64,000 nucleotides of DNA from NCBI RefSeq assembly GCF_008119665.1, contig NZ_CP043046.1, positions 5,208,001 through 5,272,000 of the forward strand, written 5' to 3'. Shown piece after piece: positions 33,877-35,852 of the stretch. The DNA is from Pigmentiphaga aceris. Lineage in GTDB: Bacteria; Pseudomonadota; Gammaproteobacteria; Burkholderiales; Burkholderiaceae_B. The notes below the pieces were generated by a model, which was given only the letters and a program-made list of their open reading frames with translations, ran no database searches and was not told the DNA's origin. The position numbers and the translations under genes are program-made. How positions within the stretch are numbered: the first letter of the stretch is position 1; each line of letters begins with the position of its first letter.

Positions 33877-34224
33877 TCATTCTTCGGAGCGACAATAAGA
33901 ATTTATAAAATAATTTATTACTTGATCGATTTTTTCAATCCGGGAAAAATCGGACTTTCGAGCAACATAATCCACCTCCATATCCGGCGGGACTTCTCTG
34001 AATATTCTCATGCCAGGTGGACCATCGGGGGGATAGACAATAACCGTCGTTGGAAATTCTTCCTTCACATAGAATTTTCTTCCGTGGTTTTTCATTTCCT
34101 CATAAACCCTGAACCCTTGGTAATTTTCCTTCTCAATTGTTCCAAGAAAGTTCTCATTCGAATTTTTCGAGATCGAACCTAGTTGTAACTTGGAATCTGT
34201 TCTCGAAAAGTCCTTTCTGCTCAT
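33877..34224 (-). CDS. Hypothetical protein, C-terminal part of a split island protein (gene B, unit 2)
   Basis: 115 residues, no known family. The segment GFRVYEEMKNHGRKFYVKEE and the following 60 residues align without gaps with the decayed copy at 34769-34963: from YVK to the final Cys I count 16 identities in 60 positions plus many conservative changes (shared YVK, P, G, R, YV, SD, R, I and C). The ATG overlaps the stop of the preceding frame (ATGA). Adding one T to the T6 run at 34228-34233 would fuse both frames into one 198-residue protein, so this is more likely the tail of a frameshifted gene than a gene of its own. AT-rich codon use unlike neighbours. Confidence 0.5.
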   Translation of the reverse strand: MSRKDFSRTDSKLQLGSISKNSNENFLGTIEKENYQGFRVYEEMKNHGRKFYVKEEFPTTVIVYPPDGPPGMRIFREVPPDMEVDYVARKSDFSRIEKIDQVINYFINSYCRSEE

Positions 34225-34472
34225 AAGAAAAAATACTCAGGAAACTCTGGAAAATTAATTGCGTCCTCTTTGGAGATTTCAAGCTTCAACCTGACTATAT
34301 CTCCCAGACCCCCCTCAAAGTTGGCCAATACGAGGTGAGATGGGAATGAGCAGCGGTTCCAAAAAAAATTTTCTGGACGACCTTCTACAGCAGGTTTACT
34401 TAAAATCATCCCTAGAAGACAGAAGAAAAAAACAGCTATCAGTACTACTGCCTCCAACACTAGTCTTCTCAT
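34221..34472 (-). CDS. Hypothetical membrane-anchored protein, N-terminal part of a split island protein (gene B, unit 2)
   Basis: 83 residues from the ATG at 34472; an in-frame ATG at 34517 would add 15. One N-terminal membrane segment (LEAVVLIAVFFFCLLGMIL) is followed by a short exported or cytoplasmic domain with WNRC. In the decayed unit-1 copy the equivalent segment reads WHGC at the same distance from an LLG motif at the end of the membrane span. Ends at an ATGA overlap with the 115-residue frame. Function unknown. Confidence 0.5.
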   Translation of the reverse strand: MRRLVLEAVVLIAVFFFCLLGMILSKPAVEGRPENFFWNRCSFPSHLVLANFEGGLGDIVRLKLEISKEDAINFPEFPEYFFL

Positions 34473-34524
34473 AAAATTCCACAGCAAGAAATACTGGTCC
34501 GTCGCAAGAGACGCCATTCAACTC

Positions 34525-34605
34525 ATAAAAGCTACAGATCATGCAAGACCTGAGCAATGCAGCATCAGAATTGGTCAGAGAAATAAAGCTGCGGCAAGCG
34601 CCCAT
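34525..34605 (-). pseudogene. Remnant of island gene A (unit 2)
   Basis: A minus-strand stretch reads LTNSDAALLRSCMICSFY. It matches LTSSDARLPYPLYECSFF of the unit-1 remnant at nine of 18 positions without gaps. It begins right behind the degraded gcvP end and has lost its 5' part, and the frame runs on into gene B. Too short to be a working gene. Confidence 0.35.
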
Positions 34606-34611
34606 AAGAAA

Positions 34612-34747
34612 GCGCTTTCGCGCTGGTTCGGTCGTGCCGCCGGTCTACTTGCTGACCATCAAACCTCGACGTAGCTCTCCAACGGCAGGTAGCCGCAGAT
34701 CAGATTCCGATCGCCTTACGCGTTATCCACATGCGCCCCCGGCCGCC
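34612..34747 (-). repeat. Direct repeat of the gcvP 3' end and terminator (degenerate copy)
   Basis: 136 bases that align without gaps with 35717-35852, differing at 18 positions by hand count (about 87% identical). It covers the last 29 codons of gcvP, the stop, and half of the terminator stem (agcgctttcgcgct kept, T tract lost). Same orientation, 1105 bases from the intact copy. Confidence 0.88.
34659..34747 (-). pseudogene. Degenerate gcvP 3'-end fragment
   Basis: Read in the gcvP frame it gives [31 protein letters not shown], against [15 protein letters not shown] and PPLESYVEV in the real gene. The Tyr codon is changed to TAA. Only the last part of the gene is present, so it cannot be functional. 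Confidence 0.85.
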
Positions 34748-34768
34748 GTAGTAAGCGTTGGAATCAAA

Positions 34769-35344
34769 TCACTCACGGTCAACCTTATTGCAAATCAACT
34801 TAATACGGCTATCTACAATATTATTAATTTCGTAAAACCTCAGAACATCCGACCCCTCTATTACATAAGCAAGCTGGATATTTTCTGAGATGTTTCGGTA
34901 CACTCGTGCCGTTTGAAGCCCTTCAGATGAAACCATAATTAATGCTGCCGGGCCATCTTTTTTACGTAGTATCTGCTATACCCATCACCTGGAGGCGAAA
35001 AATAAAGATCAAAACCAGCAAGATCGGAATCATCAGCAAGATAATAATAATAAAATTTAGAAACCCATCTTCCTTGCGATGAAGCTCTACTTTGCGATGC
35101 ATCTCGGTGCCATATCAATGCAACTGACAAAGGGAATGATGAAGACCCTTGCATATAATTATCCGAAGCACCTATATTCAATCTAGCAACCTCATCGAAT
35201 ACAGCTCTCAATCCGAACTCTCCAGCTATGCAGCCGTGCCACCTCTGCTGCTCGCTATCACGCTAAAAGATATTTATCAAAACAAAAGAACCTAGCAATA
35301 AAAAGGACAACAACAAAAACGTTCTGTTTTTTTGACTTGAACAT
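34769..35344 (-). pseudogene. Frameshifted copy of the membrane-anchored island protein (gene B, unit 1)
   Basis: Three pieces in two or three frames. N-terminus: ATG at 35344 (MFKSK), an A7 run at 35327-35333 where dropping one A opens a membrane segment (RTFLLLSFLLLGSFVLINIF), then an in-frame TAG at 35263-35265. Middle: the frame from 35262 to 34939 (RDSEQQRWHGCIAGEFGLRA to YYVKK). C-terminus: after the A6 run at 34958-34963, a second frame ending at 34769 (KDGPAALIMVSSEG to KVDRE) that carries the homology to the unit-2 protein. Corrected length about 191 residues, close to the 198 of unit 2. Product family unknown. Confidence 0.6.
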
Positions 35345-35594
35345 CTTCACCACCAACAAAGCCATTGACTGCGAACCTACCCAAATACTGCAGATCGCTA
35401 TCTAAAAGAAAACATATTTTTCTTCTAAAACATATAAAACCGAACAAACCCGGAACACGGTCACAGAAGAAGCTACATTCGTAAAGCGGGTAGGGCAATC
35501 TGGCGTCAGAACTCGTCAGTATTTTTTAACCACTCCAGGCTCGGCTCTTTCTCCCCAGAAAACCAATACCCCCCCAAAAAAAATTTTTATTCAT
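35292..35594 (-). pseudogene. Remnant of island gene A (unit 1)
   Basis: ATG at 35594 followed by runs of T8 and G7 (35569-35583). Adding one G yields MNKNFFWGGYWFSGEKEPSL; a further shift at the A6 run near 35527 continues into ILTSSDARLPYPLYECSFF and on to about residue 100. No single frame is open through. The LTSSDA part matches the unit-2 remnant. The homopolymers just after the start would suit slipped-strand switching, but decay is equally likely. Confidence 0.35.
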
Positions 35595-35706
35595 GACACA
35601 GCAGGTCAAATTTTATTATCTTGATAAATTTTCTTTATTCATAAGCACTGAGTACTCCATCTGATGTCACCTTTCGTGTCATCAATGCTTGAAAACTGAC
35701 GGACAT

Positions 35707-35733
35707 AAAAAAACCGGCGCTTTCGCGCCGGTT
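35707..35733 (-). terminator. Rho-independent terminator of gcvTHP
   Basis: Stem accggcgc / gcgccggt with a 4-base loop (gaaa on the minus strand), followed on the minus strand by seven T. It lies 30 bases past the gcvP stop. Confidence 0.9.
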
Positions 35734-35852
35734 CGGTCGTGCAGCAGGTCTACTTACCGACCATCAGACCTCAACGTAGCTCTCCAACGGCGGGCAGCTG
35801 CAAATCAGGTTCCGATCGCCATATGCGTTATCCACACGCGCAACCGGCGGCC
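35717..35852 (-). repeat. Direct repeat of the gcvP 3' end (intact copy)
   Basis: The partner of the degenerate copy at 34612-34747. It comprises the terminator loop, the gcvP stop codon and the last 29 codons of the working gene. Confidence 0.88.

Follow-up and report, generated by a model that had tools for sequence, protein, structure and literature searches.

What is the AT-rich island behind gcvP in Pigmentiphaga aceris, and how did its broken genes come to lie there? The window analysed here is a stretch of 64,000 nucleotides, bases 5208001-5272000 of this single-contig genome (6.17 Mb), and all positions below are those of the window unless another contig is named. The island lies between the intact gcvP gene (35764-38643, minus strand, 959 aa by the open reading frame (ORF) list) and a convergent universal stress protein gene (33326-33757, plus strand; Pfam Usp, E 9.7e-27). 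Its G+C content is 41.8% (33877-35716) versus 61.4% for the whole window; the initial annotation had already noticed that it is AT-rich. The two tandem units that it had described were likewise recovered: each reads gcvP end, spacer and one broken gene of a shared family, which we call B, with B1 in the outer and B2 in the inner unit. We tentatively interpret the island as the remains of two immunity-type genes that were taken up in turn, gcvP serving as the homologous anchor.

The gcvP ends form a direct repeat of 136 nt (34612-34747 and 35717-35852, 87% identical) that holds the last 28 gcvP codons, the stop codon and most of the terminator stem; the likeness ends abruptly on the gcvP side. 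The inner copy (minus strand) belongs to intact gcvP, whose terminator stem-loop lies at 35711-35734. The outer copy (minus strand) is displaced and decayed, with an internal TAA and partial loss of the T run of the terminator. In the coding part 73 of 86 nt are alike (85%), the 13 differences yielding 7 nonsynonymous codons (one a stop) and 5 synonymous ones, and after the codons 45 of 50 nt agree (90%, 5 differences). Scored at the 13 coding differences, each of the 37 loci of relatives chosen for comparison (L009 and L015 were left out) sides with the inner copy at more sites than with the outer (site counts: inner 269, outer 96, neither 108). A wider set of 104 loci, which comprises nearly all those fetched and includes some without the gcvP 3' end (L023-L025), gave the same picture, with the inner copy nearer in 103 and one tie. 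At a few sites of the 37-locus comparison it is the outer copy that holds the commoner state among relatives, and thus the outer gcvP end is not a descendant of the present inner one.

Integration into the 3' end of a gene, leaving a displaced end behind, is a classic island signature. The displaced gcvP end matches it, as would be expected of a site-specific element that integrated there, restored the gene with its own copy and left the repeats as attachment sites. We consider this very improbable, since the repeats enclose no ORF large enough for an integrase (the largest wholly inside has 90 aa; no integrase profile was run) and B1 stands outside them.

B1 (33877-34517, minus strand) is split by one frame break into ORFs of 98 aa (34221-34517) and 115 aa (33877-34224) that share an ATGA overlap adjoining a T6 run (34228-34233). 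B2 (34769-35344, minus strand), delimited from frames, homopolymers and profile matches, carries a frame break near an A6 run (34958-34963), possibly another near an A7 run (35327-35333) and, as an additional lesion, an internal TAG at ~35263-35265. The two are homologous members of one protein family, and both genes are broken. Their C-terminal parts match without gaps over 58 residues with 14 identities (score 72; best of 2000 shuffles 45); the alignment proposed earlier is therefore significant, with slightly different counts from the 16 identities over 60 residues then given by hand. Taken alone, the N-terminal and C-terminal pieces of B1 do not match the middle piece of B2 significantly (117 and 484 of 2000 shuffles, respectively, reach the score). 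These pieces are linked through a third protein, P0002, which a profile of both read-through copies found at E 4.4e-36 among 747 word-sharing candidates scored from a database of ~5.8 billion. P0002 is intact, has 193 aa, lies on a 1221-base contig and is 33% identical to B2 and 28% to B1 (52 of 183 aligned residues). The read-through lengths of 191 and 198 residues and the W-x-x-C motif reported for B1 and B2 fit this relative, which reads W-Y-G-C.

At the DNA level the best alignment of the units after the repeat is formed by those same C-terminal parts, and 25 of 300 shuffles score as high. Since their DNA does not align above shuffles, B1 and B2 have diverged far more than the repeat. One plain duplication does not fit this difference unless gene conversion intervened, in agreement with the unequal divergence that had earlier been held against a simple duplication. 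On such a reading gcvP end and B would have been copied together in a simple tandem duplication, and conversion would then have held the two gcvP ends close to each other as the B genes drifted apart; this would account for the identical order of gcvP end, spacer and B in both units. We nevertheless regard it as quite improbable: the B1 and B2 DNA cannot be aligned above shuffles while the repeat is still 85% alike in its coding part and 90% after the codons, and the private nonsynonymous changes and stop of the outer end mean that conversion was not keeping it clean.

Alternatively, B1 and B2 could be old tandem paralogs between which local duplication or template switching placed a stray copy of the gcvP 3' end, in which case no cassette would have carried a gcvP end with it. 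This would explain the unequal divergence without a second strain, and the gap between the B2 stop and the outer gcvP fragment is only ~21 bp. It would, however, require the copy to land precisely between the genes and in the same orientation, and it gives no reason why the source should be the upstream neighbour gcvP; we judge it unlikely.

The successive uptake of two cassettes, which we favour, would have run as follows. B1 would have been the first to stand behind gcvP. A strain with B2 behind its own gcvP end would later have supplied a DNA fragment that was anchored by the gcvP homology and joined illegitimately at its other end; alternatively, a small circle could have integrated by one crossover. 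Either event would restore gcvP with the incoming tail, set B2 next to it and push the old tail and B1 downstream, after which both B genes would have decayed. The piece of gcvP that separates B2 from B1 (34612-34747) would be the expected trace of homology-facilitated illegitimate recombination anchored in gcvP, by analogy with the systems described below, and a single-crossover integration would, we infer, leave the same trace. The initial annotation had also placed the remnant of a small gene A in each unit. No coding gene is supported in the inner spacer (35345-35716, minus strand), and the similar short stretch that suggested one, a best match of 25 nt between the two spacers, does not rise above chance (114 of 1000 shuffles score as well).

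Homology-facilitated illegitimate recombination has been proposed for the orphan immunity arrays of the Vibrio cholerae type VI secretion system (T6SS), where a newly added module moves the former effector tail and immunity gene further downstream (PMC5361080). The island resembles these arrays in its row of diverged genes, here of putative immunity type, and in the displaced 3' end of the upstream gene. In the arrays it is the effector gene that is displaced, and the region upstream of the module provides the anchor (PMC5361080), whereas here the anchor is housekeeping gcvP, with no adjoining effector and no T6SS sheath gene. The orphan 3' ends of Rhs and contact-dependent inhibition systems offer a similar picture of a constant 5' gene, a variable downstream part and displaced tails (PMC5361080). 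In contrast to the genes of those systems, gcvP encodes no toxin, and the variation does not lie in its own 3' end.

Relatives of B are few. B1 and B2 match no family in Pfam, NCBIfam or PADLOC; the single Pfam row for the B pieces (E 0.2) lies below its cut-off, PHROGs gave a single row (E 0.15) for one of three B-family members, and P0002 has no NCBIfam match and no precomputed Pfam domain. A repeat search with the three sequences gave no further relative among 2453 candidates. The B profile found only this locus among 369 genomes of the class and, among 268 genomes of the taxonomic family, this locus and weak matches in four others. As sole queries, the 115-aa B1 piece found only itself and the 90-aa B2 piece only this genome among the 268.

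Two distant candidates come from genomes G025 (215 aa; E 1.1e-4 in its own genome, ~0.03 chance matches expected over 268) and G254 (203 aa; E 0.003 in its own genome). No shuffle of the soluble part (0 of 1000) reached the score of either, both having been picked as best matches. With the G025 protein included, a B-family profile retrieved only this locus and G025 from 399 genomes of the order. The G025 gene overlaps by 4 nt the gene of a 262-aa membrane protein that has no Pfam match over the cut-off; the pair lies at 7706-9138 of L123. The weak matches in G266 and G293, and five further weak rows (G165, G168, G243, G247 and G289), were taken as chance. An origin from phages or plasmids was set aside: P0002 matched nothing in plasmids or phages up to an E of 1, and plasmids likewise gave no match to the G254 or G025 protein. 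One viral-contig stretch (26%, residues 21-82) lies antisense to a 192-aa ORF and was judged a chance match; it is one of 95 found by motif patterns, and its W-Y-G-C is built into the pattern.

What might these proteins do? B1, B2, P0002 and the G025 and G254 proteins all have, by eye, a basic start and one hydrophobic N-terminal span, an arrangement that would place the main domain in the periplasm. The W-x-x-C motif and a C-terminal cysteine are kept in the alignment of P0002, B1 and B2; in the G025 protein both positions hold a cysteine but the tryptophan is missing, and the G254 protein has no cysteine. That the two cysteines are either both there or both missing fits a periplasmic disulfide. 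The fold of B1 and B2 themselves was taken from that predicted for P0002, their one intact relative. The nearest structures, with the two highest Z scores, are Smlt3025 and then FrpD (140 and 135 residues covered). Smlt3025 (PDB 6PDK) is an immunity protein of the killing type IV secretion system (X-T4SS) of Stenotrophomonas maltophilia, and FrpD (PDB 5EDF) an outer-membrane lipoprotein of Neisseria meningitidis that binds the RTX protein FrpC. Their fold group is marked by an antiparallel beta sheet at the centre and a helix at the C-terminus, which the B proteins may share.

The neighbours of the G254 candidate point the same way. Its gene stands directly before that of a 2373-aa RTX-repeat protein, followed by ABC-transporter and HlyD genes and by one that, by eye, resembles a gene for a TolC-type outer-membrane factor; an RTX protein gene with type I secretion genes in this position recalls frpDC. 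The G254 protein model is poor (predicted local distance difference test 53.9), so that comparison based on it counts only as support. We therefore suggest that intact B1 and B2 products would have had ~193 residues, a membrane span, two conserved cysteines and a fold of the Smlt3025/FrpD group, and would have shielded the cell from incoming antibacterial effectors of the RTX-N-domain or Smlt3024 type by binding to them. Immunity genes had been among the parallels drawn in the initial annotation; the predicted fold and the G254 neighbours lend this support, and what is missing is a partner toxin bordering B1 or B2. It is also quite possible that the B proteins are other periplasmic proteins, for instance of an EagR/DcrB-type fold, whatever the route of gain. 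EagT6 stands above Smlt3025 in Foldseek (E 6.3e-4, probability 0.89, versus E 3.2e-3, probability 0.97); the two highest Z scores, with their long coverage, argue for Smlt3025 and FrpD instead.

That ranking is one of several points that weigh against two immunity genes gained in turn. The Foldseek TM-scores for the P0002 matches are low, and searches at E up to 10 or up to 5 gave no sequence match to FrpD or Smlt3025. Both of these are lipoproteins, Smlt3025 by prediction, whereas the B proteins have a membrane span and no lipobox was seen by eye in the B1, B2, P0002, G025 or G254 proteins; Smlt3025 is also larger (248 residues in the crystal). The score of the G254 candidate implies ~0.9 chance matches over the 268 genomes, and only this candidate has an RTX neighbour: B1 and B2 are bounded by gcvP and the stress protein gene. 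No partner effector, secretion gene or RTX gene adjoins them (no search for RTX effectors was made in the rest of the genome). The partner effector of Smlt3025 is known, whereas no XVIPCD effector domain was found in this genome; none of the 268 genomes passed the XVIPCD cut-off (two rows fell below it, neither from this genome), and the X-T4SS setting was dropped. A T6SS setting was dropped as well, the sheath gene VipB not being found in this genome. Because the frame breaks adjoin homopolymers, they could in part be sequencing errors. Finally, the structure is known from one genome, and in collections holding one genome per species a state with B1 only or B2 only was not seen.

The island has no counterpart at the other gcvP loci compared. 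The last 120 GcvP residues match once each at 86 of them (80 named and 6 from the genus; in some, <1 kb of sequence after the gene was covered), with no second gcvP end. At 14 loci inspected more closely the genes behind gcvP vary between genera, and no 500-base block below 51% G+C occurs in the first 4 kb. Judging by titles and abstract openings, none of the papers listed on gcvP with islands, immunity or hotspots describes a gcvP slot.

It is conceivable, if doubtful, that the gcvP 3' end is the fixed anchor of a cassette slot, to which immunity-type genes with strain-specific gcvP tails are added stepwise while older ones are pushed downstream, giving orphan immunity outside secretion clusters, and that the B proteins, anchored in the inner membrane, form a new and rare branch of the FrpD/Smlt3025 fold. 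If so, immunity to the toxins of rivals can accumulate downstream of ordinary genes, out of sight of scans aimed at secretion clusters; the displaced tail of a housekeeping gene would be a simple search signature for it; and Smlt3025 and FrpD, the latter's own role still open, would be tied to a wider family.

Some further observations concern gcvP and the surroundings of the island. GcvP is ~77% identical in amino acids to most Achromobacter GcvP and to that of Bordetella ansorpii among the matches listed, versus 65-72% to six full-length copies of its own genus (11 genomes searched, 9 with a match), which may reflect transfer or a mixed genus. In one genome of the genus with 8% contamination (G006:C8:2026777-2042920) gcvP is split, with residues 1-441 and 464-710 encoded on the minus strand and residues 716-956 ~13 kb away on the plus strand, and looks like the outcome of an inversion or a misassembly. 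Rfam models at gathering score gave no match in 33000-36500. At 24215-30723 lie three adjacent chemoreceptor-like ORFs with N-termini alike, of which the two tested have HBM sensor, HAMP and MCP domains. About 5 kb from the island, at 40885-44313, an ORF of 1143 aa with Big_5, an endonuclease/exonuclease/phosphatase domain, RTX repeats and DUF4214 probably encodes a secreted enzyme.
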